A DNA stretch of 64,000 nucleotides, taken from Phyllobacterium endophyticum (GTDB taxonomy: Bacteria > Pseudomonadota > Alphaproteobacteria > Rhizobiales > Rhizobiaceae). The notes beneath the pieces are model-generated. The model made no database searches. It had not been told where the DNA came from and saw only the letters and a list, made by a program, of their open reading frames with translations. Each line of letters starts with the position of its first letter. The stretch's first letter is position 1. The stretch is taken from the NCBI RefSeq assembly GCF_003010935.1, contig NZ_PGGN01000007.1, positions 1 to 64,000 on the forward strand, read 5' to 3'. The position numbers and the translations under genes are program-made. This document shows positions 21,586 through 44,145 of this stretch, one piece after another.

Positions 21586-22458
21586 TCAAGGCTCATGATT
21601 GAAAGCCGGCAGCTTGTACGCCTCGATGGCCGATCCGCCGAAAATCTGATCGCGTTGTTGCGCTGTCAAATCCGGCAGACTTTCACGCAAGGCACCCATA
21701 ACATCATCATAGCTGCCGGCAACCAGGCAGACCGGCCAATCGGTGCCAAACATGCAGCGGTCGGGACCAAAGATTTCAAGGACATGATCCACATAGGGCT
21801 TCAGATCAGCTGGCGTCCAATCGTGCCAATCGGCTTCGGTGACCATACCTGACAGTTTGCACCAGACATGCCGCCGCTCCCTGCGGAAGCCTTGCATGAG
21901 CTCGGCCCACTCATCGTACTCGCGGTTCTTGATGTTCGGCTTGGACATGTGATCGAGAACAAAGCGCAACTCGGGAAAAGTTTTCGTCGTCTCGATCGCC
22001 GAAGGGAGTTGAGGAAGGTTGGGAACGAGGTCGTAGACCAGACCCGCATCCTGCACTGCCTGAAGACCTCGGCGTACATCGTCGCGCAAAAGCCAGTTCG
22101 GATCGGGTTCCGTCTGAATCAGATGCCGTATACCAACGAGCCACTTTCCGTTCGGACTTTGCTGGAGTTCCGCAAGCGTATCTGCCACGTGCGGATCGGT
22201 CAGATCGACCCAGCCGACCACGCCAGCGACAAAATCGGTGTTTGCTGCCGTTTCGATGAAGTCCCAGGTCTCGCCGAGATCATTCCAGGTCTGCACGAGG
22301 ATAGTTCCAACCACACCGTTGGCCTGCAAAGCCGGGTGCAGATCGCGCGGCTCGAACTTTCGGTTGAGCGGCTCGAAGGGACCGCTCAGCCACCCATAGT
22401 CACCACCACTTGCCGGATCCCAAAAATGTTGATGTGAATCGATAATCGGAGATGCCAT
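21586..22458 (-). CDS. Amidohydrolase, sugar-lactonase (L-fuconolactonase) type
   Basis: A 290-residue metal-dependent hydrolase of the COG3618 amidohydrolase group. It has the HxH metal motif in IIDSHQHFWDP, ELRFVLDHMSKPNIK in the middle and CMFGTDWPVCL with the catalytic Asp near the end. Characterised relatives open L-fucono-, L-rhamnono- or galactaro-lactones, or 2-pyrone-4,6-dicarboxylate. The ATG at 22458 with GGTGA upstream is the likely start. It lies 6 bp downstream of the aldo/keto reductase gene, so a dehydrogenase-lactonase sequence (sugar to lactone to sugar acid) is plausible. Confidence 0.85.
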   Translation of the reverse strand: MASPIIDSHQHFWDPASGGDYGWLSGPFEPLNRKFEPRDLHPALQANGVVGTILVQTWNDLGETWDFIETAANTDFVAGVVGWVDLTDPHVADTLAELQQSPNGKWLVGIRHLIQTEPDPNWLLRDDVRRGLQAVQDAGLVYDLVPNLPQLPSAIETTKTFPELRFVLDHMSKPNIKNREYDEWAELMQGFRRERRHVWCKLSGMVTEADWHDWTPADLKPYVDHVLEIFGPDRCMFGTDWPVCLVAGSYDDVMGALRESLPDLTAQQRDQIFGGSAIEAYKLPAFNHEP

Positions 22459-22464
22459 GCTCAA

Positions 22465-23451
22465 TCACCAGCGTTGATGCACATAGGGCTTGATGTCCTG
22501 CTGATAGATTTCCCTGATCTTTTCCATCGTGTCAGTGGTTATCGGAGCAAGTTCGACTGCTTCGGCATTCGAGCGCGCCTGTTGAGGATTGCGGGCACCA
22601 GGAATTGCAACCGTGACCGCGTCGAACATCAGGATCCAGCGCAATGCAAATTTGGCCATTGTCGTGTCGCCCGAAACGAGGGCACGGACCTTCTCGACCG
22701 CGTCTAGGCCTTTTTCATAAGGAACACCGGAAAAGGTTTCACCAACATCGAAAGCTTCGCCATTGCGGTTGAAATGGCGATGATCGTTCTCGGCGAACTT
22801 CGTATCGCGCTTGAACTTGCCGGAAAGCAGGCCGCTGGCAAGCGGCACACGGGCGATGATCGCCGTCTTCGTCTCCTTGGCAAGGTCGAAGAACCGCTCG
22901 GCCGGACGCTGGCGGAATGCATTGAAGATGATCTGCACGCTGACGACGCCCGGATATTCGAGGGCCTTGAGGGCTTCTTCAACGCGCTCGACACTGACGC
23001 CGTAGTTGCGAATCTTGCCCTGCTGGACGAGTTTGTCGAGTCGCTCGAAAACTTCCGGATGATAGTAAAGGTCCGTTGGCGGGCAGTGTAACTGCACCAG
23101 ATCCAGCGTGTCGGTTTGAAGGTTCTTCAAACTGCGCTCTATATAATTCGAAAGGTTCTCGGCGCTATAGCCGGCAACGGTCTGTTCCGGCAGGCGCCGG
23201 CCTGCCTTGGTGGCGATGAACGGTCTTTCGCCGCCGCGCTCCCTGACAACCTTGGCGATCAACTGTTCCGAATGGCCATCACCATAGACGTCGGCGGTAT
23301 CGATGAAATTGACACCGCTGTCGAGCGCCGCATGAAGCGCCGCCAGCGCCTCCTCGTCATTCACCTCACCCCAGGCAGCACCGATAGCCCACGCACCAAA
23401 ACCGATTTCACTGACCTTGCGGCCAGTGCGTCCAAAATCTCTCATTCGCAT
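22465..23451 (-). CDS. Aldo/keto reductase
   Basis: A 328-residue NADP-dependent TIM-barrel oxidoreductase. Catalytic tetrad residues appear as Asp and Tyr in SGVNFIDTADVYGDGHSE, Lys in FIATKAGRR and His in LVQLHCPP. The coenzyme region near the end has AIPGARNPQQARSNAEAVEL. Paired with a lactonase, it could act as a sugar 1-dehydrogenase, a role known for some aldo/keto reductases (D-threo-aldose 1-dehydrogenase). It is the first gene of a two-gene operon. GGGAG precedes the ATG, and a TTGT-N3-ACAA operator lies 84 bp upstream. Confidence 0.9.
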   Translation of the reverse strand: MRMRDFGRTGRKVSEIGFGAWAIGAAWGEVNDEEALAALHAALDSGVNFIDTADVYGDGHSEQLIAKVVRERGGERPFIATKAGRRLPEQTVAGYSAENLSNYIERSLKNLQTDTLDLVQLHCPPTDLYYHPEVFERLDKLVQQGKIRNYGVSVERVEEALKALEYPGVVSVQIIFNAFRQRPAERFFDLAKETKTAIIARVPLASGLLSGKFKRDTKFAENDHRHFNRNGEAFDVGETFSGVPYEKGLDAVEKVRALVSGDTTMAKFALRWILMFDAVTVAIPGARNPQQARSNAEAVELAPITTDTMEKIREIYQQDIKPYVHQRW

Positions 23452-23532
23452 GTGTCAACTCCCTGTCGGCGCCGTGTCGTTATCTCACCTGCAGCGCATC
23501 AAACGCAGTGTTCCAATACATATCGAATATCT

Positions 23533-23547
23533 GATTGTACGACAACC
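23533..23547. promoter_or_regulatory. GntR-type operator before the reductase-lactonase operon
   Basis: GATTGTACGACAACC carries the palindrome TTGT-N3-ACAA. It differs at one position from the site at 25277-25291 and closely matches the perfect palindrome at 44131-44145. Such 11-15-bp sites are typical for FCD-type GntR repressors, two of which are encoded in the island. Confidence 0.6.
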
Positions 23548-23571: not shown

Positions 23572-25155
23572 TTATGCGCCATTGCGGATCATATCGGCAG
23601 CTTTCTCTCCTATCATGACAGTGGCGGCGTTGGTGTTCGAGGAGATCAGCCTTGGCATGATCGAACTGTCGCAGACACGCAGCCCCTCGATGCCGCGAAC
23701 GCGAAGTTGCGGATCGACAACTGCTCCCTCCCCTGTTCCCATGCGGCATGTACCGACAGGGTGATAGGCGGAGCGCGCATATTGTCTGGCGAAGAGAGCA
23801 GCACTTTCCCGCGACGTTACCGCATCGCCGGGAAGGTGTTCACGGCGAATGAATGGCCGAAAGGCGGGCTGCGCGAGAATCTCGCGGCTCAACATTATCC
23901 CGTCGATGGCCCGTTCCAGATCATAGGGCTCCGAGAAGGCGTTCGGATCGATGATCGGCGCATCGCGCGGATCGGATGAACGCAAGGTGACCGAACCACG
24001 CGAACGCGGCCGGACATGATACGAATTCAACGTACAACCATTGCCTCCAGGCACCGAACCGATGCCTTCCTCTACACCCGCGCCCGGCAGAAAATGAAAT
24101 TGGATATCCGGCGTCTTCTCACTCTTGTCGCCCCACCAGAAAGCGCCGCCTTCCACAATGTTGGATGCAATGGGTCCTTTGCCGAACAGTGTGTATTCGA
24201 GACCGGCCATGAATTGCCAACGGCGCTTCTTGTAGCGATCAATGCCATAAGGTCCCGAGAGTTCCGCCAGCACATCGACATCCATGTGGTCCTGCAGGTT
24301 TTGCCCGACACCCGGGAGATCATGAATGACTTCGACACCTTTGGCTTTGAGATGCCTCGCATCGCCAATTCCCGAAAGCATCAGCAGTTTTGGCGAGCCA
24401 ATTGCACCCGCTGCCACAATCACTTCCCGTTCAGCCCGCAGGATTGAAGGATTGCCATGCTCGATGATTTCGATGCCTCTTGCGTGTCCGTTCTCGATGA
24501 CAATACGATTGACGAAAACGCCTGTTCGAACCGTGAGGTTTTTGCGACCAAGCGCAGGCTTGAGGTAGCCGACGGCGGTACTGCTGCGCTTGCCCCTTTT
24601 CGTCGTAGTTTGATAGAACCCGGTCCCCTGCTGATGGGCAGCGTTGAAATCGGCAGTGAAAGGCAGCCCCGCCTGTTGTGCAGCCTGCACGAATATTCGG
24701 GTTAGCGGGTGCGGATTGCAAAAGCTGACGCCGAGCGGGCCCTCATTGCCGTGGTAATCGCCGACGAATGTGTCATTGCCTTCAGACTTCTTGAAGTACG
24801 GAAGCACGTCCTTGAATGACCAGCCGGTGCATCCCTCGTCCAGAGCCCAGGCGTCATAATCTTCCGGGCACCCGCGCGTGAATACCTGCGCATTGATGGA
24901 ACTGCCACCACCCAGAACCCGTGCTTGCGGATAGACCATGGTGCGGCCATCGATCTCGCGCCCTGCAGCAGTTTCATAGCCCCAGATCAATGGGCCCGCG
25001 GTCATCTTGAAAAACCCTACAGGCAGATGGATGTAGAAGTTCGTATCGCGCGGACCAGCCTCGATCAGCGTGACGGATATGCTCGGATCCTCTGACAATC
25101 TCGCAGCCATGACGCAGCCGGCGGAGCCGCCGCCAACGATGATATAATCGGACAT
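23572..25155 (-). CDS. GMC-family alcohol/choline dehydrogenase
   Basis: A 527-residue FAD enzyme of the choline-dehydrogenase branch. The N-terminus is DYIIVGGGSAGCVMAARLSE, then RVLGGGSSINAQVFTRG (GMC signature 1) and AGAIGSPKLLMLSGIG (signature 2). The active-site His is in ARSAYHPVGTCRMG and the pair-member Asn in RLISSNTNAATVMIGEKAAD. It oxidises a primary or secondary alcohol and likely passes electrons to the membrane quinone pool. It is transcribed away from the sugar ABC operon, with an operator at 25277-25291 between them. The substrate is presumably the imported compound or its lactone precursor. Confidence 0.9.
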   Translation of the reverse strand: MSDYIIVGGGSAGCVMAARLSEDPSISVTLIEAGPRDTNFYIHLPVGFFKMTAGPLIWGYETAAGREIDGRTMVYPQARVLGGGSSINAQVFTRGCPEDYDAWALDEGCTGWSFKDVLPYFKKSEGNDTFVGDYHGNEGPLGVSFCNPHPLTRIFVQAAQQAGLPFTADFNAAHQQGTGFYQTTTKRGKRSSTAVGYLKPALGRKNLTVRTGVFVNRIVIENGHARGIEIIEHGNPSILRAEREVIVAAGAIGSPKLLMLSGIGDARHLKAKGVEVIHDLPGVGQNLQDHMDVDVLAELSGPYGIDRYKKRRWQFMAGLEYTLFGKGPIASNIVEGGAFWWGDKSEKTPDIQFHFLPGAGVEEGIGSVPGGNGCTLNSYHVRPRSRGSVTLRSSDPRDAPIIDPNAFSEPYDLERAIDGIMLSREILAQPAFRPFIRREHLPGDAVTSRESAALFARQYARSAYHPVGTCRMGTGEGAVVDPQLRVRGIEGLRVCDSSIMPRLISSNTNAATVMIGEKAADMIRNGA

Positions 25156-25276: not shown

Positions 25277-25291
25277 GGTTGTCGTACAATT
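25277..25291. promoter_or_regulatory. GntR-type operator between GMC gene and sugar ABC operon
   Basis: GGTTGTCGTACAATT is the reverse-strand version of the site at 23533-23547 (14 of 15 identical). It lies 121 bp from the GMC start and 90 bp from the substrate-binding-protein start, so one site can serve both divergent promoters. Confidence 0.65.
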
Positions 25292-25381: not shown

Positions 25382-26464
25382 ATGAGTGACAGGGCTAGTA
25401 TTTCACATTTCGGCCGGATGAATCGCCGGACATTGATGATGGGCGCAAGTGCTGGCCTGGCAGTGGCGGCAATGCCAAAACGGCTGTGGGCACAGGGAGC
25501 GCCAACGCTGGTTACTTCGATTCGCTCGCTTTCGAACCCTTACCACGCTGTGTGGAAGACAGGCGCAGAGGCCTATGCGGCGTCGGTCGGTCTGGAGCAC
25601 GTTACGCTTGTGTCCGAGGGCAACAGCGAAAAAGGGATTGCCGACATCAAGGCCATGCTTGCAAAGACCGGCGGCAATATGGTCCTCAATTCCGATCCCA
25701 ACGATACGCCGGATGCCCGCCCCATTGTTGAAGCCTGCAAGAGTGCCGGTGCCTCGGTGGTGACCCAATGGAACAAGCCCGCTGATCTGCACCCGCGCGA
25801 CTTCAATCCGAATTACGTATCGCACATCGAGTTCGATGGTATCGCCAGCGGCAAGCAGATTGCCGAGGTCCTCTTCAAGACGATGGGCGGCTCGGGCGGC
25901 ATCATTGCCCTTGGAGGCCTGATTTCGACGACAGCTGCCATCGAACGCAAAAAGGGTCTCGACGAGGCTCTTGCCGCAAACCCGAACATCAAGCTTCTGG
26001 ATTTTCAGGTCGCAAACTGGAAGTCCACCGAGGCGTTTGACCTGACCAGCAATCTCCTCACGCGCTTTGGTGATGACATCAAGGGCGTATGGGCGGCCAA
26101 TGACGACATGGGGACGGGGGCGCTCGAGGCGCTTCGCGCCGAAGGTCTGGCCGGCAAGGTTCCAATCGTCGGCATCGACGGCATCAAGACCGCCGTCGAC
26201 GCCGTGCGTACGGGAGAATTTGCCTGCACAATCACGTCTGATCCGTTCTGGCAGGGCGGCATGGGCCTTTCCATCGGCTACAATGCCCACATGAAGAAAT
26301 TCGATCCCGCGACCCAGCCACCGGAACACCGCGAGTTCTATGGCAAGGTGGTTTCCATCACCAAGGACAATGTCGAGGAATATTACAAGAATAACATCGA
26401 CTCCAAGCCGACCATGGATTGGAACGACCTATGGGGCCGGGTGACCGGCGCCATTCGCGCCTGA
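25382..26464 (+). CDS. Sugar ABC transporter substrate-binding protein, Tat-exported
   Basis: A 360-residue periplasmic protein of the RbsB/type 1 binding family. The N-terminus contains the twin-arginine signal MNRRTLMMGASAGLAVAAMP, so export in folded form is likely. The mature domain has GIADIKAMLAKTGGNMVLNS, GVWAANDDMGTGALEALRAE and VPIVGIDGIKTAVDAVRTGE, typical hinge and ligand-site regions. GGGAGG lies 8 nt before the ATG at 25382. It begins an operon with two permease genes flanking an ATPase gene. The ligand is probably a sugar or sugar acid handled by the neighbouring enzymes. Confidence 0.9.
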   Translation: MSDRASISHFGRMNRRTLMMGASAGLAVAAMPKRLWAQGAPTLVTSIRSLSNPYHAVWKTGAEAYAASVGLEHVTLVSEGNSEKGIADIKAMLAKTGGNMVLNSDPNDTPDARPIVEACKSAGASVVTQWNKPADLHPRDFNPNYVSHIEFDGIASGKQIAEVLFKTMGGSGGIIALGGLISTTAAIERKKGLDEALAANPNIKLLDFQVANWKSTEAFDLTSNLLTRFGDDIKGVWAANDDMGTGALEALRAEGLAGKVPIVGIDGIKTAVDAVRTGEFACTITSDPFWQGGMGLSIGYNAHMKKFDPATQPPEHREFYGKVVSITKDNVEEYYKNNIDSKPTMDWNDLWGRVTGAIRA

Positions 26465-26587
26465 AGACCGGCAATCGAGGACTCGGCCCGGCCGCGTCCT
26501 CCATTGCAAGGGCGGCGTTGGTTTCGCTGCCTGTTCTTTCCCATTTTTCACGCGGGATGTAGTCTGTTGACAGTTAACTCTGAAACC

Positions 26588-27598
26588 ATGAAGTCCATTT
26601 TGAACATGGAGCCGAAAACGGCGATGCGATCGTTCTGGAGCCGTGCGGGCAAGGCGAGGCGTTGGCGTGCGTTCGCACCTTTGGGCGTTCTGATCGTCCT
26701 TTGTATCCTGATTGCGATCGCCAACCCGAATTTCATTGAACCACGCAATCTCATACGCGTTGCAAATTCAGCCGCGGTGCCTTTGACGCTTGCCATGGGC
26801 ATGACCTTCATCATCCTGCTTGGCAGTATCGACCTTTCCGTTGAAGGTGCGATGTCTGTCGCGGCAATGGTGCTGGTGCTGCTGGCGACCAACGACAGCA
26901 ATGCCAACAATTACGGTTGGTTAGCCGTGGTCGCAGCCATAGCGGCGAGCACGGTGATGGGTCTGGCGAGTGGATTTCTCCAAACCACGCTGCGGATACC
27001 GTCCTTCATGGCGACGCTCGGTGTATGGTTCATTGGCCTCGGCTTTTCGGTCTATATGCTCGGCGGTTCGGCAGTAAGGCTAATGGACGAAAACATCCGC
27101 GCCTTGGCGTTGTCGCGCTTCCTCGGATTCCCGCTGGCGGTCTGGATCGCGCTTGCTGCATTCGCCGTCGCAATCGTTATCCAATACCACACACGTATTG
27201 GCCGTCACATCATGGCTATCGGCGGCGGTGAAGACGTTGCCGAACTTTCCGGCATAAATTTGCGCCGCGTGCGCATCATTGCTTTCGGACTTGCCGGTTT
27301 CTTCTTCGGTGTCGCCGGTGTACTCGCCGCTGCACAACTCGGTCAGTCCAATGCGGTGATTGCCGATGGCCGCCTATTTGCAGCGGTGACCGCGGTCGTC
27401 GTAGGCGGCACCGCACTGACCGGAGGCGAAGGCGGCGTTCTCAACACGCTGGTCGGCGTTTTGATCGTGACTGTGCTTGCCAACGGCATGATCCTTCTTG
27501 GCATCTCTCCGTATATTCAGCAGACGGTGCAGGGCCTGATGATTATTGCTGCTGTCGCTCTGTCGCTGGATCGCTTCAACCTCAAGATCGTGAAGTGA
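26588..27598 (+). CDS. Sugar ABC transporter permease 1 (RbsC type)
   Basis: A permease of about 336 residues with eight to ten hydrophobic segments. It has the RbsC-type features GMTFIILLGSIDLSVEGAMS, TRIGRHIMAIGGGEDVAELS and AAVTAVVVGGTALTGGEGGV. The N-terminal 30 residues are basic and cytoplasmic. The start is uncertain: in-frame ATGs at 26588, 26606 and 26624 all lack a clear ribosome site. It forms the channel with the second permease at 29115. Confidence 0.9.
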   Translation: MKSILNMEPKTAMRSFWSRAGKARRWRAFAPLGVLIVLCILIAIANPNFIEPRNLIRVANSAAVPLTLAMGMTFIILLGSIDLSVEGAMSVAAMVLVLLATNDSNANNYGWLAVVAAIAASTVMGLASGFLQTTLRIPSFMATLGVWFIGLGFSVYMLGGSAVRLMDENIRALALSRFLGFPLAVWIALAAFAVAIVIQYHTRIGRHIMAIGGGEDVAELSGINLRRVRIIAFGLAGFFFGVAGVLAAAQLGQSNAVIADGRLFAAVTAVVVGGTALTGGEGGVLNTLVGVLIVTVLANGMILLGISPYIQQTVQGLMIIAAVALSLDRFNLKIVK

Positions 27599-27602: not shown

Positions 27603-29105
27603 ATGTTTGCAGCAAACGGGATCAGCAAATCTTTTGTCGGCACACACGCATTGAAGAATGTCGATATCGAAATTCGCCCCAATGAAGTGGTCGGGCTTAT
27701 CGGCGAAAACGGCGCTGGAAAATCAACACTGATGCGCATTCTTGCCGGCACGCATCGACCGGATTCGGGCACGCTCACGCTCGATGGTCAGCCACTTCGC
27801 CTGCGCAACGCGCGCGATGCCGCGGGCCATGGCATTGGCATGGTGTTTCAGGAGCAGTCGCTACTCCTGAACATGACAGTCGCAGAGAACATCTATCTCG
27901 GGCAGGAGCACCAGTTCACCCGCTTTGGTATTCTCAACTGGCGGGCAATGAACGATGCCTCGCGCCGCCAGCTTGCAAAGATCGGCGTCGACATCGACGT
28001 GACTGCTCGCGCCTCTGGACTGACTTTTGCCGCACGCCAGATGGTGGAACTTGCCAAGGCGCTCACTCTCGAGGAAAGTGTGGACCGGCCACTGGTCATC
28101 CTGCTGGATGAGCCCACTTCCGTCCTGAGCGCTTCGGACATCGATGTGCTGTTTGCACGGGTAAAGTCGCTTAAATCCCGCGCGAGCTTCGTATTCGTCT
28201 CGCACCGTCTCGAGGAAGTCCTACGGATATCCGACCGCGTCTATACAATGAAGGACGGAGCAGTCGTGGCCGAGCACCGCTCGCAGGATGTTACCGCCCC
28301 TGCCCTGCACGAGATCATGGTCGGCCGCGGTTTGCATACCGAACATTACAAGGAGAGCAAGCAGAGCGTCCCGCGCAGCGAAGTCATCGTGGAGGCATCG
28401 AAGCTCGGTGTCGCCGGTGCTTTCCACGATGTGAGCTTCAAGATACATGCAGGAGAAATCATAGGTATCGCGGGGGTCGTCGGCTCGGGACGCGAGGAAA
28501 TCACACGCACGATAGGCGGTTTTTTGCCTCAGACCGAAGGTGCGCTCAGGATCAAGGATGCCTCCGTGCGCTTCACGTCGCCAGAGCAGGCCGTGCGCAA
28601 GAGCATCGGTTATATCCCGCGCGAGCGGCGCGTCGAGGGGCTGGTGATGTTTCTCTCGGTTGCTGAGAACATAACGCTCGCTGATCTTTCCTGCGTCATG
28701 CGCGGCGGAGCGATCAATTACAAGGAAGAGCGAAAACTCGCCGTCGACTGGATCAAAAAGCTGCGCATCAAGACGCCTGGACCGGATGCTGCCTGCCGCA
28801 AGTTAAGCGGAGGCAACCAGCAAAAGGTGGTTCTGGCACGCTGGATGACAGCGGGTTCGCAAATATTGATCCTCGATCATCCAACACGCGGTCTCGATGT
28901 CGGCGCAAAGGAAGAGGTCTACGACCTTGTCAGGGACCTTTCAGCTCAAGGTATCGCGATCCTGCTTATCTCCGACACGCTCGACGAGACGATCGGTCTC
29001 TCGCACAGGGTACTCGTCATGCGCGACGGTGAAGTCACCGCAGAGTTCGATGCCAGTCGCGGCAACAAGCCGGATCAGGTCGAACTGTTGCGCGAGATGG
29101 TTTGA
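27603..29105 (+). CDS. Sugar ABC transporter ATP-binding protein (RbsA type)
   Basis: A 500-residue protein with two fused ATPase domains, the usual arrangement for ribose/galactose-type importers. The first has Walker A GENGAGKSTLMRILAG and Walker B VILLDEPTSVLS. The second has a degenerate Walker A region (VVGSGREEI) and an intact signature LSGGNQQKVVLARW. The first signature motif is replaced by LTFAARQMVELAKAL, normal for this class. It lies 4 bp after permease 1 and 9 bp before permease 2. It powers uptake of the island's substrate. Confidence 0.95.
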   Translation: MFAANGISKSFVGTHALKNVDIEIRPNEVVGLIGENGAGKSTLMRILAGTHRPDSGTLTLDGQPLRLRNARDAAGHGIGMVFQEQSLLLNMTVAENIYLGQEHQFTRFGILNWRAMNDASRRQLAKIGVDIDVTARASGLTFAARQMVELAKALTLEESVDRPLVILLDEPTSVLSASDIDVLFARVKSLKSRASFVFVSHRLEEVLRISDRVYTMKDGAVVAEHRSQDVTAPALHEIMVGRGLHTEHYKESKQSVPRSEVIVEASKLGVAGAFHDVSFKIHAGEIIGIAGVVGSGREEITRTIGGFLPQTEGALRIKDASVRFTSPEQAVRKSIGYIPRERRVEGLVMFLSVAENITLADLSCVMRGGAINYKEERKLAVDWIKKLRIKTPGPDAACRKLSGGNQQKVVLARWMTAGSQILILDHPTRGLDVGAKEEVYDLVRDLSAQGIAILLISDTLDETIGLSHRVLVMRDGEVTAEFDASRGNKPDQVELLREMV

Positions 29106-36375: not shown

Positions 36376-37287
36376 TCAGTCGGCAGATAGTGCCGGGCCG
36401 GTCAGCGATACGCCATTGAGAGCTGCTATCACATCGGACAATGCGGGCACGAATTCCTCGCCGTGCCCGGTTGCAACGGCCGTCGCGAAGGAATTGCGGA
36501 CAGCCGCGCCAATGGGATTGGCGATGGAAGCCGACTGCGCAAAGGAGGCGAGATAGGACATGTCCTTGAGTGCATTGACCATGGCAAATCGTTGCGCGTT
36601 CGGATTGCGGTTGAGGACGAACTCGAAGAAGGCTTGATAAAATCCGCAGTCCATCCTGCTGCCGCGTATGACGCTGTCGAAGACCTGAGGCGTCAACCCT
36701 GCCTTCGCACCAAGCGCAAGCGCCTCAGAATAGATTGTGGCATAGCCCATCGAAAGGAAGTTGTTGAGGAGCTTCATCGTGTGGCCGCTGCCCGTCGGAC
36801 CCGTGTGGATGATGCGCGCGGCGAATGCCTCGAGGATTGGCTTTGCCCGCGCCACCGCTTCTGCAGATCCGCCTATCATGACGTCGAGCGTGCCTTCCGC
36901 TGCTTCTTTCGGCGTCCGGGCCAGCGGTGCATCGACGAGGATGCTGCCTTGGTGCGCCAGTTCCGTTGCCATTTGCGCGGTTATGGCGGGATTGGACGTC
37001 GAGCAATCGATGATGAACAGCTCTTTGCCCGCTGCGAGCAATCCGTCCACGCCCTTCAGCAACTGTTCGACCTGGGGCGAACCCGTAACGCAGAGAATGA
37101 CGACATCCGAGGCAAGGGCGAGGTCCCTTGGCGTCGCAGCCTCTGTCGCCCCGTCCTTGACCAGCCGCTCGAGCGCCTCGCGGCTGCGGTGCGCGAAAAC
37201 AGTCATCGGCCAGCCTTTGGCAAGCAGATTTGCGGCCATGCCAGACCCCATGCTTCCCAGTCCAATGAAGCCGATCTTTTCTTTCAT
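36376..37287 (-). CDS. NAD(P)-dependent beta-hydroxyacid dehydrogenase (HIBADH/GarR type)
   Basis: A 303-residue dehydrogenase. It has IGFIGLGSMGSGMAANLLAK, a Rossmann motif with family-specific GLGxMG, the substrate loop LVDAPLARTPKEAAEGTLDV, and the catalytic Lys region TGSGHTMKLLNNFLSMGYAT. Relatives include 3-hydroxyisobutyrate dehydrogenase and tartronate semialdehyde reductase. GGGAGG precedes the ATG. It is first in the unit with larC, larE and larB, and divergent from the second GntR gene. A role on a C3-C4 intermediate of the island is likely but not fixed. Confidence 0.85.
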   Translation of the reverse strand: MKEKIGFIGLGSMGSGMAANLLAKGWPMTVFAHRSREALERLVKDGATEAATPRDLALASDVVILCVTGSPQVEQLLKGVDGLLAAGKELFIIDCSTSNPAITAQMATELAHQGSILVDAPLARTPKEAAEGTLDVMIGGSAEAVARAKPILEAFAARIIHTGPTGSGHTMKLLNNFLSMGYATIYSEALALGAKAGLTPQVFDSVIRGSRMDCGFYQAFFEFVLNRNPNAQRFAMVNALKDMSYLASFAQSASIANPIGAAVRNSFATAVATGHGEEFVPALSDVIAALNGVSLTGPALSAD

Positions 37288-37409: not shown

Positions 37410-38162
37410 ATGAAGGAGCAGGAAACCACGCTGTTCAATACGATCCAGCAAACGCCCAATCTGCGCAGTGGTTTGGTGGACACGCTCATTGCCCAGATTG
37501 AATCGGGCGACCTTGCACCTGGTCAGCGCCTGCCGACCGAACAGGCGATCATGACCGCGACCGGCGTCAGCCGCACAGTTGTCCGTGAGGCTCTGGCCTC
37601 GCTGCGTGCCAAGGGCCTTATCACCACCAGGCAAGGTCTTGGAGCGTTTGTCTCGGACGATCCGACGCCCAGATCCTTTTCCATCATACCGACCGACCTT
37701 GAATCGATCGATGACGTACTGCGTATCCTCGAGTTGCGAATGGGTATCGAGGTCGAGGCGGCCGGGCTTGCTGCGCGGCGTCGCACGCAAGACGATGTGG
37801 AGCGGATGGCATCGAGACTTGATGCGCTCGAAAAGTCCATCCAGGCGGGCGGTCCGGGCGCTGAAGAGGATTTCGGCTTCCACCGTGCTATCCTTGTCGC
37901 AACCCAGAACTCCTACTACGCCCGGCTGTTCGATACCTTCGGCAGCACCATGGTCCCGCGCCAATGGGTCAGGTTCGACACGATGGACGCTGCGGAACGG
38001 CAAAAACACGTCGCCCGAATGCAGCGTGAACACCGCGCGATCCTGTCGGCAATCCGCGACCAGGATGAACGTGCTGCCCAGAAAGCCGTTCGAACGCATC
38101 TGACCAAAAGCTCCGCCCGCTTCGTCGAGCTGCGCGACCGTGCCCGGACAGGCCAAAGCTGA
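37410..38162 (+). CDS. GntR-family regulator, FCD type (2)
   Basis: A 250-residue regulator. The winged helix is RLPTEQAIMTATGVSRTVVR and the FCD domain has DFGFHRAILVATQNSYYARL, EHRAILSAIRD and a final HLTKSS His. It is similar to, but distinct from, the regulator at 32185; the recognition helices are nearly alike (TGVSRTVVREAL against FGVSRNVVREAI), so they could share or compete for sites. It is divergent from the dehydrogenase-lar unit and convergent with larA, with 4 bp between stops. Confidence 0.9.
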   Translation: MKEQETTLFNTIQQTPNLRSGLVDTLIAQIESGDLAPGQRLPTEQAIMTATGVSRTVVREALASLRAKGLITTRQGLGAFVSDDPTPRSFSIIPTDLESIDDVLRILELRMGIEVEAAGLAARRRTQDDVERMASRLDALEKSIQAGGPGAEEDFGFHRAILVATQNSYYARLFDTFGSTMVPRQWVRFDTMDAAERQKHVARMQREHRAILSAIRDQDERAAQKAVRTHLTKSSARFVELRDRARTGQS

Positions 38163-38166
38163 CCTG

Positions 38167-39459
38167 TCAGGCTGCGAAACGCGGAACGACATAGGGGCCC
38201 TCCGGTATGATCGCGACCGCCGTATCGCCGCTCTTGGCGATGCTTCTTTCGATGGCCTTGCCGATATCGTCAATCATATGAACGCCTGTGAGCATCCGGT
38301 CATCACCGGACAGTCCGGTGGTGTAAAGCTCGACACGCCCGAGCCGCATCGGCTTCAACTGCATCTCGGTTTGCCACTCGTCGATTTCCGCAAGGTTTTT
38401 CGCGGTAAGTGTCGCTAGGAAGCGCTCTGGTCCGAGATCGACAAGACGTGCCTGAGCTTCGCGGAACTCGGCCGAGCCAAAACCTTCCGAACATTCGGAC
38501 GCGATGATGAGTGTGCCGCCGGGTTCAAGTATATCGAGCGGGGTCACCATGCCCTTGATCGTCTGGTAATAGGTCTTGTCGAGTGGATAGCCGGCCGACG
38601 ACGTGACGATTGTCGAGAACTTCCTCGGCGACGCAATTTGCGTAACCTCACTGACATAAGCTACCGCCGCCGCATGGCTCGCTATGATCTCACCAAAGGT
38701 GACGCAAACCAGATCGCGATCTTCATCCAGGACCGTGTTGAGGCCATAGACATCGCCAAGCATCCTGACGATTTCCAGCTGCTCTTCGTGGAGGGGATTA
38801 CCGATCAAGTTACACTGGACCGCGAGCGGATCCTCCATGAACCGGGCCGAATGGAACGTGCGGATCGTCTCATGGTGTGCCACACCCGGCGCAATCACCT
38901 TCCGTCCGCCTGACCAGCCGGCCATGAAGTGCGGTTCGACAAGCCCGGTCGCAATGCGCAGATCGGCTTCGACAAACCGCCGATCCAGCTTGACCGGAGT
39001 TCCACGCGTCCGAGTTGGCCCAAGATCGATATGATCTTCCTCGTTGCGGGCATAATGATTTTCCACCCGTACGTTTTCGAGAACCCAGGAATCGCCGACA
39101 AGTTCGGCAAGCTCATCGCCGAGGTTAGGCCTGTGCAAGCCGGTGGCAATGAGGACGATGATCTTGTCACGGGGTATCCCCGCTCCGATCATGGCTTGGA
39201 TCATCGGGCGCAGAAACAGCCCATTTGGCACCGGGCGCGTGATGTCACAGATGAGAATGCATGCGCTATTGCGTCCGCGTGCAAGTTGGGCCAACGGCGG
39301 GGACCCGATGGGCTCGTTCAGCGCCGCTGTGATGGCGGCCGGCTGATCGGCGATCTTCGGCAACGCTCGCTTCCGGATGATTGTCGGTCGTACGATCGCT
39401 GGCAGGCTCAATGGGAGATGGCCGCGACCGAAAGATATGGTGATTGTTTCATCCGTCAT
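38167..39459 (-). CDS. larA: LarA-type nickel-pincer hydroxyacid racemase/epimerase
   Basis: A 430-residue enzyme of the LarA superfamily, which racemises or epimerises 2-hydroxyacids by hydride transfer to a Ni-pincer nucleotide. All key residues of the L. plantarum enzyme have counterparts: Asp72 and Arg75 in CDITRPVPNG, His109 in TGLHRPN, His177 in EPHFMAGWSGG, Lys187 in GGRKVIAPG and His203 in TFHSARF. The superfamily includes lactate, malate and short-chain racemases and sugar-acid 2-epimerases; the specificity is not readable here. AGGA precedes the ATG at 39459. It is the last gene of a Liv-type importer operon. Confidence 0.9.
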   Translation of the reverse strand: MTDETITISFGRGHLPLSLPAIVRPTIIRKRALPKIADQPAAITAALNEPIGSPPLAQLARGRNSACILICDITRPVPNGLFLRPMIQAMIGAGIPRDKIIVLIATGLHRPNLGDELAELVGDSWVLENVRVENHYARNEEDHIDLGPTRTRGTPVKLDRRFVEADLRIATGLVEPHFMAGWSGGRKVIAPGVAHHETIRTFHSARFMEDPLAVQCNLIGNPLHEEQLEIVRMLGDVYGLNTVLDEDRDLVCVTFGEIIASHAAAVAYVSEVTQIASPRKFSTIVTSSAGYPLDKTYYQTIKGMVTPLDILEPGGTLIIASECSEGFGSAEFREAQARLVDLGPERFLATLTAKNLAEIDEWQTEMQLKPMRLGRVELYTTGLSGDDRMLTGVHMIDDIGKAIERSIAKSGDTAVAIIPEGPYVVPRFAA

Positions 39460-39463
39460 TTTC

Positions 39464-40183
39464 CTACCCCGCAACGCCGCCAAGATAGAGCTCGCGCATG
39501 AGCGACATGTCCCTGAGCTCTTCGATCGGTCCTGATGTAGCGATGCGTCCGTTTTGCATCAGATACCCCCGGCTTGCAACCGAAAGTGCAAGCCCTGCAT
39601 TCTGTTCAACCAGCAAAACGGAAGCGCCGAAGCGGTCGCCGATACCGAGGATAATGCCCTGGATTTCCTTGACCAGCAGCGGCGAAAGACCGAGCGACGG
39701 CTCATCGAGCAGAAGGATACGTGGCCGCGCCATGAGACCCCTGGCGATTGCCAGCATTTGTTGCTGGCCGCCGCTCAGTGAGCCACCCTTCTCCCGGCGC
39801 TTGACTGCGAGAATCGGAAAGAATGATTCCATTGTTCTGACATCCGCGTCGACCCCCTCCCCGTCCCGGCGCGTATAAGCTCCGAGCCGCAAATTTTCTT
39901 CGACAGTCATATCGGTAAAGATACGGCGTCCTTCGGGGACGAGCACTATTCCACGTTTCGCCATGACATCGGGCGCCTGCCCGGTGACATCAGCGCCATC
40001 GAAAATGACCGAGCCGCTTCGGGGTTTCACCAAACCGGCGAGCGTGCGCAACAGTGTCGACTTGCCCGCGCCGTTCGGCCCGAGAACCGTTACGATTTCC
40101 CGTGCCGCCAGGGTTAGCGAAACGCCGCGGTTGACGATGGTCGGGCCATAGCCTGTGGTCATGTCGGAGATGGTGAGCAGCAT
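39464..40183 (-). CDS. livF: Branched-chain-type ABC transporter ATPase (LivF)
   Basis: A 239-residue ATPase. Walker A is VLGPNGAGKSTLLRTLAGLV, the signature is GSLSGGQQQMLAIARGLMAR and Walker B is ILLLDEPSLGLSP. The opening TGYGPTIVNRGVSLTL and VPEGRRIFTDMTVEENLRLG are LivF-type. It overlaps the livG stop by 1 nt (TAATG). In this operon it probably serves uptake of a hydroxyacid rather than an amino acid, given the larA gene 4 bp downstream. Confidence 0.92.
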   Translation of the reverse strand: MLLTISDMTTGYGPTIVNRGVSLTLAAREIVTVLGPNGAGKSTLLRTLAGLVKPRSGSVIFDGADVTGQAPDVMAKRGIVLVPEGRRIFTDMTVEENLRLGAYTRRDGEGVDADVRTMESFFPILAVKRREKGGSLSGGQQQMLAIARGLMARPRILLLDEPSLGLSPLLVKEIQGIILGIGDRFGASVLLVEQNAGLALSVASRGYLMQNGRIATSGPIEELRDMSLMRELYLGGVAG

Positions 40184-40905
40184 TACAGCGCTCCTCCGAG
40201 ATAGACTTCAAGCACTTTGGGATCGTTCAGCACGTCCGCGGTGGGCCCGTCGGCAATCTTTGAACCGAAGTCCAATACGGCGAGGCGTCGGCACAGCATC
40301 TGCATCAGTTTCATGTCGTGATCGATGACACAAACGCTAATACCATGCTCCGGAAACTGTTCAACCAGATGCACCAGTGTCGTTGTTTCGCGATCGTTCA
40401 AACCCGCCGCGGGCTCGTCCAGCAAGATGAGCGATGGCCGCGTTGCCAGCGCCAAAGCCAGACCCAGCAAACGAAGGCGTCCGAATGGCAATATGCCTGC
40501 TTTTTCCTCGGACAACCCTGACAGGCCGACGAATTCAAGTAGACTTGCCGGCGTCGTCCAGGGAAAGTTTGCAAGTGTATTGCTGCAATGCTCCGTCGCG
40601 ATCTGGACGTTTTCGAAAACGCTCAAGCCGGTAAATGCCATGGCCTGTTGAAAAGTATAGGCGATGCCGGCGCGCGATACGGCGTTTGCCGGGATACCCG
40701 TGAGGTCCCGGCCACGCCATGAGACGGTACCCGCAGTCGGCTTGTGCACCCCTGTCACGCAATTGAACAATGTGGTTTTGCCCGAGCCATTCGGCCCAAC
40801 GACACCTAGGATCTCTCCTTCGTTGACGGTCAGGTCCACACCCGCGAGCGCGGTAACGCCGCCGAACTCCTTGCGCAGGCCCTTGATATCGAGCAGTGCA
40901 CCCAT
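40183..40905 (-). CDS. livG: Branched-chain-type ABC transporter ATPase (LivG)
   Basis: A 240-residue ATPase. It has LRKEFGGVTALAGVDLTVNE, Walker A VVGPNGSGKTTLFNCVTGV, LPFGRLRLLGLALALATRPS in place of the usual signature, and Walker B LILLDEPAAGLND. The signature is weak (FGRLRLLGLA rather than LSGGQQ), as is common in LivG (YGxQRRLEIARAL). The ATG at 40905 has GGGAGGG 6 nt upstream and overlaps the livM stop by 1 nt. Confidence 0.9.
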   Translation of the reverse strand: MGALLDIKGLRKEFGGVTALAGVDLTVNEGEILGVVGPNGSGKTTLFNCVTGVHKPTAGTVSWRGRDLTGIPANAVSRAGIAYTFQQAMAFTGLSVFENVQIATEHCSNTLANFPWTTPASLLEFVGLSGLSEEKAGILPFGRLRLLGLALALATRPSLILLDEPAAGLNDRETTTLVHLVEQFPEHGISVCVIDHDMKLMQMLCRRLAVLDFGSKIADGPTADVLNDPKVLEVYLGGAL

Positions 40906-41903
40906 CACTTGCCCTCCCGCTCGACAGCAGGCTCGTTTGGTTGAACGGGGCGGCGGTCGAAGAACCTGTACCAGCCGGCGACAATTCCGGCGATCAGACC
41001 ATTTGGAAGAAGCAGGATCACCGCGATCAGGCAGACACCGTAGAGAATGCGCGACTGCACAGGATCAAGGTTCAGGAGCTCCGGCAGAAATGCAACGAGT
41101 ATTCCGCCAGCCAGGGGTCCAAGCAGAAGCCGCGCCCCGCCAATCATCACCATCAAGGCGAGATAGATGCTTGGGAAGGACGCAAACTGGCTGGGCGAGA
41201 TATGGCGCAGGAAATAAGCGAGCAGAACACCCGATACACCAGCAAATATACCGCTGACAACGAAGGCACCGATCTTGTGGCGGCCGACATTGATGCCAAG
41301 TGAAGCTGCGAGTTTTTCGTTCTCGCGGATCGCGCGAAGAGTTCGGCCGTAGCGGGAATTGATGATAGCCCAGCTGGCAATGGCGCTCAACGCCACGAAG
41401 GAGACCACCATCAGATAGTAGTGCGTCAGCACGTCCATCGACAAACCGAACAAGGCCACGGGCTGCTGCACATCAAGCCCGGAAGCGGCTCCGGTATAGT
41501 CGCCGCCATTGGTCAGGATGATCGACAGCAACTGGCCGAATGCAAACGTCATGATGACGAAATGATGGCCGCTGACACGAAGCGAAGGGACGCCTATGAG
41601 TGCCGCTACGATGGCTGCCATGATCCCCGCCAGTGGAATGGAGAGCCAGAACCCTACGTTGAAATCGCGCGCGACGATTGCGGCCGTATACGCACCGATT
41701 CCCACCAGTGCGGCATGGCCCATCGAGAGTATGCCGGTTTGGCCGAAGAGAACAGACAGACCGTAAAGCGCGATGACGTTGATTCCGGCGGAGATAGCCA
41801 ACGAGAGAAAGCGGTTGCTCGGTGATAACAGCGGGACGAGTGCAAACAGCACAAGCAGAATGAGGACTGGTAGAAGCGATCGGAGTGAATTGCTTACGGG
41901 CAT
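40905..41903 (-). CDS. livM: Branched-chain-type ABC transporter permease (LivM)
   Basis: A permease of about 332 residues with eight to ten hydrophobic segments. Family features are LSVLFGQTGILSMGHAALVG, SRYGRTLRAIRENEKLAASL and MVMIGGARLLLGPLAGGILV. AGGAAG lies before the ATG at 41903, which I prefer; an ATG at 41927 immediately after the livH stop is also possible. It pairs with LivH to form the channel. Confidence 0.9.
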   Translation of the reverse strand: MPVSNSLRSLLPVLILLVLFALVPLLSPSNRFLSLAISAGINVIALYGLSVLFGQTGILSMGHAALVGIGAYTAAIVARDFNVGFWLSIPLAGIMAAIVAALIGVPSLRVSGHHFVIMTFAFGQLLSIILTNGGDYTGAASGLDVQQPVALFGLSMDVLTHYYLMVVSFVALSAIASWAIINSRYGRTLRAIRENEKLAASLGINVGRHKIGAFVVSGIFAGVSGVLLAYFLRHISPSQFASFPSIYLALMVMIGGARLLLGPLAGGILVAFLPELLNLDPVQSRILYGVCLIAVILLLPNGLIAGIVAGWYRFFDRRPVQPNEPAVEREGK

Positions 41904-41927
41904 CAGGGCACTCTTCCTATATCTCAT

Positions 41928-42797
41928 TCATGCCATCTTCGGGCCGCTGGTCCCGCCGAAGAGACCATTGGGCCGGAAAAGCAATACGAGAATCATCAGC
42001 CCGAACGAATAGGCGTCGGTCCACCCGGAGAAACCGTAACCGGCGCTCAGACCCTCGACGATGCCGAGAATGAGACCGGCGACCACCGCTCCTGTGAGAT
42101 TCCCGAGCCCGCCGATGAGTGCGACCGCGAAGCCCTTCATCACCATCGTTCCTCCGGTGAAGGGAGTGATCGGAAACAATGCAATGAGAAGACCCCCGCC
42201 AAGTCCGGCAAGTGCACTTCCGAGAACGAAAACACCTGTGATGTAACGGCGAACCGGAATTCCCATCAATGCCGCCGTATCGCGGTCTTCGACACTGGCG
42301 CGCAGCGCGCGGCCATAACGGCTTCTGGTTATGGCAACGAACGTCATGGCGACGACTGCGGCGGTTATGAAGATCACCATGACCCGCACGGACGCGATGC
42401 GTACGCCGCCGATCTCCCATACAGTGTTGAGGGGCCGCGGAATGCTCTTCTGATTGGCGTTCCAGAACAGGATGACGATGTGCTGCAGGACTATGATCAA
42501 ACCCAGCGAAACGATGAATCCATTTGTCGGCCGCTCGAGGGTGAAGCGGAAAAGACCTCGCTCCAAAGCAAAGCCCATCACTGCCACGACGATCATCGCA
42601 AGGATGATGGCCAACCAGAAGCTGACACCGTTGCTGACGGCAAGCCATGTCACAATGCTTCCGACCATCAGGAATTCGCCATGGGCAAAATTGATGATAC
42701 CCGTCAGGCCGAAGATCAATGTGACACCGACGGCTATCAGCGTGATTACGCTGGCAATCGAGAGCCCGTTGAGAATTTGTTGCAGGAGTACGTCCAC
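41928..42797 (-). CDS. livH: Branched-chain-type ABC transporter permease (LivH)
   Basis: A 289-residue permease with about eight hydrophobic segments. It has QQILNGLSIASVITLIAVGV, FGLTGIINFAHGEFLMVGSI and the loop RSRYGRALRASVEDRDTAAL. The start is a GTG with GGAAG 6 nt upstream. It follows the binding-protein gene by 75 bp and precedes livM without a gap. Confidence 0.9.
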   Translation of the reverse strand: MDVLLQQILNGLSIASVITLIAVGVTLIFGLTGIINFAHGEFLMVGSIVTWLAVSNGVSFWLAIILAMIVVAVMGFALERGLFRFTLERPTNGFIVSLGLIIVLQHIVILFWNANQKSIPRPLNTVWEIGGVRIASVRVMVIFITAAVVAMTFVAITRSRYGRALRASVEDRDTAALMGIPVRRYITGVFVLGSALAGLGGGLLIALFPITPFTGGTMVMKGFAVALIGGLGNLTGAVVAGLILGIVEGLSAGYGFSGWTDAYSFGLMILVLLFRPNGLFGGTSGPKMA

Positions 42798-42872
42798 GGT
42801 CTGCTTCCGGTTCAGATGATCATTCGGATAGCGTTCCGGCCGCCCCGAGGGCGACCGGGGGTCCTTGGGGGA

Positions 42873-44093
42873 CTATTGCTTCGGCGCGTCAGCCGGCGGT
42901 TCCTGCATGGCGCAGGTGATATCGCCACCCGGCGCTGCTGCGCAGACTTCGGTGGCGTGGGTCACCTGATGCGTTGCGTTGAATGCGAGGTCGTCCGAAA
43001 CCACACCCTTGTGGTGCAATGTTTTCAGCGCTTCAACCGTCTTGTCGGGATCGAGAGAACCAGCTTTTTCCCATGCTTCGGCAAGGAAATGCACATAATC
43101 GTAATAGAGCAGCGACACGGACGACGTCACGCCCTTTGGTGCGCCGGCCGCAAAATACGCGTCGAAGTATGCTTTGGCCTTCGGATTGGACGACTCGCCC
43201 CAGCAGACTGGCACGCAGCTCATCGCCACGGGGACATCTGCCGACAACCCTTGCTCTTTCCATATACCGGGGTCGACACCGAAGAGGAAATAGCTCGGTG
43301 CGACACCGAGTTCCAGCGCCTGGGGAAGTGCAGTCAGCGTCGAGTCGCCATTGTACCAGAAATGGACGACATCCGGCTTCAGGCTCTTGGCGCGCGTAAG
43401 AAAGGGCGAAAAGTCCGTCGTGTCCGGAGGATAGAATATGATGTCCGGAACGTCCTGGCCTTCGGATTTCAGCGCAGCAAAATAATAGGAGGACAGGAAT
43501 TGCCCGGTCGCGTCGTTGCCGACAATCAGCACGGATTTTTTAAGCGGGTGACCGACAAGCGGCTCCAGCAGTTTGAGCACGCCGCGCGCGGTCGAACCGC
43601 TGCGCTGAAACTCCTGAGGCTCAGTCTGGAAGAGATAGTGATCTTCTCCGCCGTTGGCGACAGAACTCTCCGTCAGCACTTTGGCAAGCGTACTGTTGCC
43701 GGCGAAATGCAGGACCTTGGCCGGTTGCGTGATCTTGGCCATGGCCAGTGTGAAGTCGTGGGTTTCCGATCCGAAGATCGCCGCGACTTTCTCGTCGCGC
43801 ACGAGCTCTTGTGTTGCCGCGATTGCCGTCGAAATGTCAGTACGGTCATCGCGCTTTAGAAGTTCGAGCCTGTAGGTCTTGTCGCCGACCTTTACACCTC
43901 CCTCGTCATTGATCTCCTTGACGGCGAGGCTGACACCTGCAGGCAGCGTGTGGCCTGCGGAGACGAAGGCCCCGGACTCGGCTGCCACGACACCGATCTT
44001 GATTGTCTCTGCCGCATCCTCAGCCAGCACTGGATATGTGAGTACGCCGAGGAACAGCGCGAGGCTCGCGCTCCTCAATAAAGTCGATTCCAT
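42873..44093 (-). CDS. Branched-chain-type ABC transporter substrate-binding protein
   Basis: A 406-residue periplasmic protein of the Leu/Ile/Val-binding (type 1) family. Residues 1-24 form a signal peptide (LFLGVLTYPVLAED). The mature protein starts IKIGVVAAESGAFVSAGHTL and contains RLELLKRDDRTDISTAIAAT. Extra Cys residues near the C-terminus (EVCAAAPGGDITCAM and CVPVCWG) suggest disulfides, less usual for this family. GGGAGG lies 7 nt before the ATG at 44093. A perfect TTGT-N3-ACAA palindrome lies 38 bp upstream. The ligand is inferred to be the LarA substrate or its isomer. Confidence 0.9.
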   Translation of the reverse strand: MESTLLRSASLALFLGVLTYPVLAEDAAETIKIGVVAAESGAFVSAGHTLPAGVSLAVKEINDEGGVKVGDKTYRLELLKRDDRTDISTAIAATQELVRDEKVAAIFGSETHDFTLAMAKITQPAKVLHFAGNSTLAKVLTESSVANGGEDHYLFQTEPQEFQRSGSTARGVLKLLEPLVGHPLKKSVLIVGNDATGQFLSSYYFAALKSEGQDVPDIIFYPPDTTDFSPFLTRAKSLKPDVVHFWYNGDSTLTALPQALELGVAPSYFLFGVDPGIWKEQGLSADVPVAMSCVPVCWGESSNPKAKAYFDAYFAAGAPKGVTSSVSLLYYDYVHFLAEAWEKAGSLDPDKTVEALKTLHHKGVVSDDLAFNATHQVTHATEVCAAAPGGDITCAMQEPPADAPKQ

Positions 44094-44130
44094 AATAGAT
44101 CCTCCCGATCCATATCTTGCAATCTTACCG

Positions 44131-44145
44131 GGTTGTCGTACAACC
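44131..44145. promoter_or_regulatory. Perfect GntR-type operator of the liv-larA operon
   Basis: GGTTGTCGTACAACC has 6-bp perfect arms around a 3-bp centre. It is the best copy of the motif also found at 23533-23547 and 25277-25291, and is placed where a repressor would block the promoter 38-52 bp upstream of the start codon. Confidence 0.7.

Follow-up and report, generated by a model that had tools for sequence, protein, structure and literature searches.

The stretch of DNA analysed here, 64,000 nt of a Phyllobacterium endophyticum contig (NZ_PGGN01000007.1, positions 1–64,000; hereafter the window), harbours at positions 21586–44147 an island in which the genes of a nickel-pincer racemase system, larA, larB, larC and larE, lie together with sugar-acid genes in two convergent gene sets. 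The left set holds, on the minus strand, an amidohydrolase (AH), an aldo/keto reductase (AKR) and a GMC dehydrogenase and, in its remainder, a sugar ABC importer, gloA (minus strand), an FAD-linked 2-hydroxyacid dehydrogenase (GLCD), a GntR regulator and a short-chain dehydrogenase/reductase (SDR). The right set, on the minus strand, consists of a LivKHMGF-type importer with LarA, then a beta-hydroxyacid dehydrogenase (BHAD), LarC, LarE and LarB, with one GntR regulator encoded on the opposite (plus) strand; the importers are two ABC systems, one sugar-type and one Liv-type. A sequence-only reading of the same DNA had named all four lar genes and, as their neighbours, a lactonase-type amidohydrolase, an aldo/keto reductase, a GMC dehydrogenase, an SDR, an FAD enzyme, glyoxalase I and two importers, and family matches bear it out for each of them. 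To these the present analysis adds two GntR/FCD regulators, BHAD between larA and larC and a 13-mer shared by several promoters.

LarA (38167..39459, minus strand; its open reading frame, ORF, opens at 39483) scores above the cut-offs of both of its domains, PF09861 (Lar_N, 179 bits) and PF21113 (LarA_C, 53.5 bits), and is the single Lar_N match in the 5.5-Mb genome. For LarA, LarB, GloA, GLCD and the binding proteins of both importers the start was placed according to the annotation of P. zundukense. Alignment revealed that the equivalents of the catalytic and cofactor residues R75, H108, H174, K184, H200, Q295 and K298 are all kept (roles as given in PMC11770544 and PMC11851776). LarB (33688..34365, minus strand, ORF to 34662; NF033503, 237 bits, cut-off 175), LarE (34362..35162, minus strand; TIGR00268, 251 bits, cut-off 150) and LarC (35159..36358, minus strand, with its LarC1 and LarC2 parts in a single frame; TIGR00299, 178 bits, cut-off 90 and NF052512, 104 bits, cut-off 50) are all intact and above the curated cut-offs, forming a full set for biosynthesis of the nickel-pincer nucleotide (NPN). 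LarA is patchy within the order, with a match in 10 out of 297 genomes, this one included and the two weakest being 27–29% identical; the best-matching named LarA loci are from Phyllobacterium, with 94–95% LarA identity.

The 13-mer GGTTGTCGTACAA was found in the island three times with zero mismatches, at 23535..23547 (minus strand) upstream of AKR-AH, at 25277..25289 (plus strand) upstream of the sugar-ABC/FAD/SDR operon and of the divergent GMC gene, and at 44131..44143 (plus strand) upstream of LivKHMGF-LarA. These are the only exact copies in the whole genome, where 0.12 would be expected, and two more sites carry one mismatch; the core TTGTNNNACAA has three occurrences in the window, all at these island promoters. 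The palindrome is presumably of the GntR/FadR type. Since a rare 13-mer stands upstream of three island operons, that of LarA included, the link between LarA and the sugar genes goes beyond proximity. Looser searches were uninformative: when the 64-kb window was scanned allowing up to 3 mismatches, 16 matches were found with 9.6 expected, a number as high being seen in 4 of 100 shuffles.

For comparison, the best 80 of 382 LarA loci found were used; 23 island loci were chosen by hand for the Liv-LarA arrangement from 91 scanned loci and plasmid records added later, and LarA and LivF are present in all 23 by this selection. Identical loci with identical LarA were entered twice (L003/L026, L005/L035, L006/L044 and L007/L047), and a group of 64 non-island loci omits L004, L008–L011, L128 and the duplicates. 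By title, the island records come from Rhizobium, Phyllobacterium, Kaistia, Rhizobiales or Alphaproteobacteria and, in one case, Mycobacterium sp. KBS0706. Among them BHAD is retained in 22, both GntR regulators (GntR1 and GntR2), LarB, LarE and LarC in 21 each, GLCD in 20, GloA, AH and AKR in 19 each, the SDR and a second aldo/keto reductase of the relatives (AKR2) in 18 each and a diketo-acid hydrolase (FAH) in 15, some of the misses being due to short flanks; distant genes (the sugar-binding protein SBP, GMC and an island glycerate kinase) were out of reach in most loci, the flanks of which are 10 kb or less. The two genes directly right of the island (HD and MBL) gave no match among the 91 loci scanned, and since the selected loci keep most of the set, the island is more than a chance grouping. 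The most divergent gene content, besides that of the outlier L028, which also lacks the site, is found in L061, where LivMGF-LarA-BHAD faces SDR-GntR-GLCD-sugar ABC and none of LarB, LarC and LarE occurs in the stretch.

With the window included, TNGTNNNACNA precedes LivK in 21 of 22 loci, AKR in 19 of 20, SBP in 7 of 7 and GMC in 5 of 5, against a background of 0.036 per 290 bp; the four counts are not independent, because LivK and AKR, and likewise SBP and GMC, often share one site. It lies close to the LarA gene itself in 1/24 loci and is absent upstream of AH, GLCD, GloA, BHAD, GntR2 and the SDR (0 of 19 to 23 loci each). One motif for all island promoters is thus ruled out, the promoter of BHAD-larCEB (0/23) included. 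The GloA/GLCD promoter contains instead a variant site with the core GTTATCATACAAC (30669..30682, minus strand), of which 13 columns are invariant in 19 of 19 aligned promoters, and the BHAD/GntR2 promoter a separate run of 9 invariant columns (22/22 promoters). In P. zundukense the AKR-AH block is situated at the opposite end of the island as compared with R. leguminosarum, and the separated units each keep their site. For three operons, then, the same palindrome is present per operon, rare elsewhere and conserved, and the LarA operon and the sugar operons appear to form one regulon under a predicted GntR/FadR-type operator.

The four specificity positions of LarA are F, M, W and Q. In an alignment of 95 LarA rows, 91 of them different, W and Q are invariant and F and M occur in 93, covering all 25 island sequences and all 13 from glycerate-kinase or KdgT contexts; neither the tree nor these pocket counts cover L034, which is included in the glycerate kinase count below. 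According to PMC11770544 the usual pocket is F, F, W and E/Q in lactate-type enzymes and E, V, A and H in gluconate epimerases, and PMC11851776 gives L and M as the first two positions of LarAIp. The suggestion of the sequence-only reading that LarA might act on the sugar acid itself, as a C2 epimerase, would suit its place among sugar-acid genes, and the superfamily does include gluconate 2-epimerases (PMC11770544 and PMC7583248). However, F/M/W/Q is not the E/V/A/H usual in D-gluconate 2-epimerases (GntE), the model NF052592 (LarAH14/15/16) gave 59 bits with a cut-off of 740, and the same pocket is found in glycerate-kinase operons. The pocket points to a small substrate and therefore disfavours a sugar-acid epimerase, which we consider very improbable, and LarA is better read as a racemase of a small 2-hydroxyacid. 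A malate racemase was also rejected (269 bits to NF052593, cut-off 500, and 242 to NF052595, cut-off 462; W and Q as against H/Q and K at the W358 and T359 positions). Since LarA reaches the cut-off of none of the five NCBIfam LarA models that it matches, no curated function applies to it; of seven plasmid LarA records in the clade four are annotated, all as lactate racemase.

Turning to the sugar genes, AH (21586..22464, minus strand; PF04909) is L-fucono-1,5-lactonase-like in its best model, NF052480 (211 bits, below the curated cut-off of 400), and in its best PDB match, the group of 4dlf (160 bits), which we take to be a fuconolactonase. AKR (22465..23451, minus strand; PF00248) and the GMC-family FAD dehydrogenase (23572..25155, minus strand; PF00732 and PF05199) lie beside it. 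The SDR (32956..33699, plus strand, ORF opening at 32923) has BDH2 (2ag5, 299 bits) and L-2-keto-3-deoxyfuconate (L-KDF) 4-dehydrogenase (8y11, 281 bits) as its nearest PDB relatives, and when aligned with 8y11 it carries the equivalents of R148, T183, R192, R214 and W252. R148-T183-R192-R214 with a hydrophobic residue 252 is the type-1 pattern in PMC11199699, where kcat/KM for L-KDGal is 5.3-fold below that for L-KDF and route 3 of L-fucose ends in pyruvate and L-lactate. We infer that a 6-hydroxy sugar taken through the same chemistry would give L-glycerate.

The dehydratase and the final hydrolase are absent from the window, and relatives of both were found when searching the genome. The FAH of related islands has L-2,4-diketo-3-deoxyrhamnonate hydrolase as its nearest PDB relative (314 bits; NF053535 414, below the cut-off of 500), and its relative in this genome (C4:505232, 72% identity; NF053535 433, likewise below 500) adjoins a gene of the dihydroxy-acid-dehydratase family. 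On the same contig as the window (C10) there is a relative of L-fuconate dehydratase, with 567 bits to 2hne/1yey and 722 to 4ip4, adjoining a second, L-KDF-dehydrogenase-like SDR that is 60% identical to that of the window; this cluster (C10:98000-116000, L114) has no LarA but also encodes a further protein of the enolase superfamily and what is probably a sugar ABC importer. The genome thus harbours candidates for the lactonase, dehydratase, SDR and hydrolase of route 3, and for AKR2, whose nearest chains are named L-galactose dehydrogenase (98 bits), the best match is only 43%. The R. leguminosarum islands L093 and L126 contain an extra enolase-superfamily gene, which L092 and the window lack, and the dehydratase of these islands has only distant matches in this genome, the one with the highest score being 28% identical. 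The proposed tie between a nickel racemase and a sugar route is supported in part, by the rare, conserved site, by the candidates for the steps missing from the window and by the type-1 SDR, the sugar being possibly L-fucose.

Outside the islands, 10 of the 64 loci have a glycerate kinase no more than 3 kb from LarA, and these kinases are of two families, of the MOFRL type (annotated glycerate kinase) in L022, L025, L034 and L094 and of the GlxK type in L044, L052, L053, L054, L067 and L127. If 2–4 kinase copies in 5 Mb and stretches of 22 kb are assumed, the chance of this is 2.7e-10 to 1.8e-7, and 1.1e-3 when related loci are collapsed (5/59). In the tree, made by a quick method with one support value, the LarA of L022, L025 and L094 are placed inside the island clade, at separate positions. 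Within the islands a glycerate kinase is found at the far end in four of the six that could be read far enough (L093, L124, L125 and L126); that of L019, with which its island is labelled in the tree, is deduced from coordinates only. The operon beside LarA in L052 encodes a tartronate-semialdehyde reductase (487 bits, cut-off 397) and a glycerate kinase (495 bits, cut-off 168), and by clustering L054 has the reductase alongside LarA too. Among 108 operonic neighbours of LarA in 40 non-island loci, Pfam families were counted as KdgT 8, ABC_tran 7, Gly_kinase 5, LysR 4, DctM and 2-Hacid_dh_C 3 each and NAD_binding_2 and LUD 2 each (first 25 of 78 families), a count without the MOFRL kinases of L022 and L025, where a different ORF had been taken. 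This genome contains one MOFRL glycerate kinase; as such kinases are present in 33/36 and 34/44 genomes or records (L064 left out), genome-wide presence is uninformative and only nearness to LarA counts.

Two plasmid loci show LarA with a kinase in other surroundings. In Rhodovastum atsumiense (L127:2656-9034) there is a stand-alone operon of KdgT-larA-larC-larE-larB-glycerate kinase, in which KdgT possibly serves as a permease for glycerate. In Rhizobium ruizarguesonis (L094:13819-25340) LarA-LarC-LarE-LarB-glycerate kinase is found by a gene of the SMP-30/gluconolactonase family and one for a 3,5-dioxohexanoate:acetyl-CoA cleavage enzyme (NF053538, 533 bits with a cut-off of 430), and L-glycerate may arise there by a further route. 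Loci of this kind bear on the idea that Liv-LarA is a separate uptake unit for an external L-hydroxyacid, merely co-regulated with the sugar operons: in many loci LarA occurs without sugar genes, the Rhodovastum operon stands alone, and amino acids or small acids are common cargo of Liv-type importers. We find this improbable, because the site is shared exactly and because, outside the 23 island loci, LarA adjoins an L-KDF-dehydrogenase-like SDR in L009 and lies close to FAH, an SDR and BHAD in L038. Further contexts of the same clade were seen in two alphaproteobacterial metagenome-assembled genomes (L081 and L086), with TRAP-transporter genes, DctP/DctM judging by their sequence, downstream of LarA.

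Taken together, we propose, with a probability of about 0.58, that the island is one regulon in which an L-hexose diketo route is joined to a LarA that inverts the C3 acid released, favoured to be glycerate. A GntR/FadR-type regulator would control the import and oxidation of an L-fucose- or L-galactose-like hexose, or its acid, along a non-phosphorylating diketo route in the order 1-dehydrogenase, lactonase (AH), dehydratase, 4-dehydrogenase (SDR) and diketo-acid hydrolase. The hydrolase would give pyruvate together with a C3 2-hydroxyacid of L configuration, namely L-glycerate if the sugar is 6-hydroxy or L-lactate if it is 6-deoxy, which LarA, with NPN made by LarB, LarE and LarC, would invert to the D form. 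D-Glycerate would then be phosphorylated by a glycerate kinase, encoded within the island in four Rhizobium plasmids and elsewhere in this genome, and D-lactate or another D-acid, if any, would be oxidised by the FAD enzyme. What the sequences show directly is the gene identities, the common site, the conserved clustering, the motif of the SDR, the catalytic residues of LarA and the recurrence of glycerate kinase; the reactions, the sugar, the binding of a regulator and the preference for glycerate over lactate are inferred.

That FAD enzyme, GLCD (30746..32188, plus strand, ORF opening at 30698; PF02913 and PF01565), has as its best PDB match a "putative oxidoreductase" (3pm9, 360 bits), followed by D-2-hydroxyglutarate dehydrogenase (307 bits) and D-lactate dehydrogenase (155 bits). 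A plain GlcD is not supported (TIGR00387, 237 bits, cut-off 568), nor does the PDB ranking support a plain D-lactate dehydrogenase. When compared with D-2-hydroxyglutarate dehydrogenase (residue roles from PMC7801405), R386, H434, H441, E475, H476, Y432 and N443 are kept, T390 is replaced by V and K401 by R, and GLCD is read here as a dehydrogenase of D-2-hydroxyacids whose preference for the side chain is uncertain. It shares the promoter with the invariant block with GloA, a lactoylglutathione lyase (glyoxalase I; 30158..30574, minus strand, ORF to 30688; TIGR00068, 157 bits, cut-off 120). Elsewhere in the genome a paralogue of GLCD (C11:105129-106537, L132) is in several pieces with an internal stop and apparently broken.

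These two genes bring in the route put forward by the sequence-only reading, in which the sugar is L-fucose and LarA turns L-lactate into the D-lactate that the FAD enzyme would use; in this version L-rhamnose could equally be the sugar, and glyoxalase I would feed the same D-lactate pool. Their common promoter would agree with it, as would the fuconolactonase-like AH, the tryptophan retained at position 252 of the SDR and a LarA of lactate-type pocket whose nearest solved relative prefers L-lactate. On the other hand, it is the glycerate kinase that recurs with LarA (Gly_kinase 5 vs LUD 2 in the neighbour count), the FAD enzyme is nearer to D-2-hydroxyglutarate dehydrogenase, the cluster with the L-fuconate dehydratase and its SDR is separate and has no LarA gene, and the genome already encodes one LldD-like L-lactate dehydrogenase (PRK11197, 443 bits, cut-off 376; 390 to the LldD model, cut-off 550). 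This lactate route is possible but in our view comes second, glycerate being better supported by the recurrent kinase, the reductase of L052 and the LldD-like enzyme, and as the substrate of LarA we hold glycerate to be roughly twice as likely as lactate.

Several observations weigh against the glycerate-yielding regulon. With up to 2 mismatches allowed, the genome shows no enrichment of the 13-mer, with 79 matches vs 147 for a reversed control. The SDR is absent from the stretches of L024, L028, L046, L051 and L124 (5/23, L028 ending at a contig edge); FAH is missing from the window island and from the Phyllobacterium loci L012, L013 and L092; and the window has neither a dehydratase gene nor AKR2, which in L092 follows AH. 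No glycerate kinase is present in the islands of the window and L092, nor in the stretches of 54 of the 64 non-island loci. The SDR retains W252, which touches the C6 methyl group of L-KDF; the position of GloA next to the FAD enzyme fits D-lactate better; and GLCD is nearer to D-2-hydroxyglutarate dehydrogenase than to D-lactate dehydrogenase. LarA is below the cut-off of the lactate racemase model (NF033504, 325 bits, cut-off 460). Finally, published lactate racemases (LARs) accept both lactate and glycerate, and for LarAIp kcat/KM is highest with L-lactate and 2-hydroxybutyrate, L-glycerate coming after (PMC11851776).

Beyond this island, the recurrent kinases tentatively suggest, at somewhat less than even odds, that a mainly proteobacterial LarA clade acts as a physiological nickel-dependent glycerate racemase, inverting L-glycerate for D-glycerate kinases, and that the rhizobial islands wire this clade into the L-hexose diketo route. 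The shared site, the conserved island and the recurrent D-glycerate enzymes together amount to one testable role assignment for the clade, whose in vivo roles are, for LarA in general, largely undetermined and not always helped by genome context according to PMC7583248 and PMC11770544. If true, the diketo sugar route would have an outlet for its L-C3 product and feed central metabolism through a nickel-pincer step, and root-associated bacteria could depend on nickel supply to grow on some plant sugars. The new element would be confined to the physiological role, since glycerate racemisation in vitro by LarA enzymes, lactate-type ones among them, is already in print (PMC11770544). In open-licence full texts no paper pairing lactate racemase with fuconate was found, which is not proof of absence; the term glycerate racemase was not found, nor were lactate racemase and glycerate kinase, or L-galactonate, L-glycerate and hydrolase, found together. 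In the same texts lactate racemase and fucose showed no such link by titles and abstract starts, the fucose of PMC11851776 being a crystallisation additive and a reference, and lactate racemase with Rhizobium and nickel gave only a Clostridioides paper that is unrelated by its title.

Among known systems, LarAH2/Sar (LarAIp; 9eid/9eia, 340 bits), the short-chain 2-hydroxyacid racemase of Isosphaera pallida, is the closest solved relative and has the same catalytic residues and the M, W and Q of the pocket in common with LarA, but carries L where LarA has F after the second catalytic His, and the available text on it mentions no sugar-acid genes. LarAH43 of Enterocloster asparagiformis, a LAR that prefers glycerate and whose role in vivo PMC11770544 describes as undetermined, shares a Gln at the T359 position and a small-acid pocket, a likeness by description and not by sequence. 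The L-fucose route 3 (FucA-FucB-FucC-FucF-FucG) has a lactonase-like protein, a type-1 SDR and a hydrolase in common with the island, the last in related islands and elsewhere in the genome, but it ends at L-lactate and no racemase is named in the available parts of PMC11199699, whereas here a nickel-pincer racemase operon shares the site. The LarA1 system of Lactiplantibacillus plantarum shares LarA, LarB, LarC, LarE and probably the NPN chemistry, but its LarA is at 192 bits only, with a pocket F/F/W/T instead of F/M/W/Q and other neighbours. Its larC is reportedly split as larC1 and larC2, and here it is a single frame.

The remaining genes of the island are the two importers, the regulators and BHAD. 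The sugar ABC system, on the plus strand, is composed of an RbsB-like binding protein (25382..26464, ORF opening at 25259; PF13407), permease 1 (26504..27598; PF02653), an ATPase (27603..29105; PF00005) and permease 2 (29115..30083; PF02653). The Liv-type system, on the minus strand, comprises LivF- and LivG-type ATPases (39464..40183 and 40183..40908), LivM- and LivH-type permeases (40905..41927 and 41928..42797), all by family match, and a LivK-type binding protein (42873..44093, ORF opening at 44147; PF13458). The GntR/FCD regulators lie on the plus strand at 32185..32901 (PF00392 and PF07729) and 37410..38162 (family match). BHAD (36376..37287, minus strand; PF03446 and PF14833, best PDB match 6sm7) has sulfolactaldehyde reductase as its best NCBIfam match, with 176 bits below the cut-off of 348; on this ground, and as none of the four scored pocket positions of LarA holds a basic residue, a sulfolactate racemase role was not favoured. 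Long ORFs at 30080-30697 (plus strand) and 37284-38273 (minus strand) have no family match, and each lies opposite a real gene. At the left border a glycosyltransferase-28/EryCIII-like gene (20306-21544) adjoins AH at the place where L092 has AKR2, apparently lost from the island of the window, and directly left of the island, at 15711-20124, a K+ transporter of the K_trans family is followed by TRAP DctQ and DctM genes.

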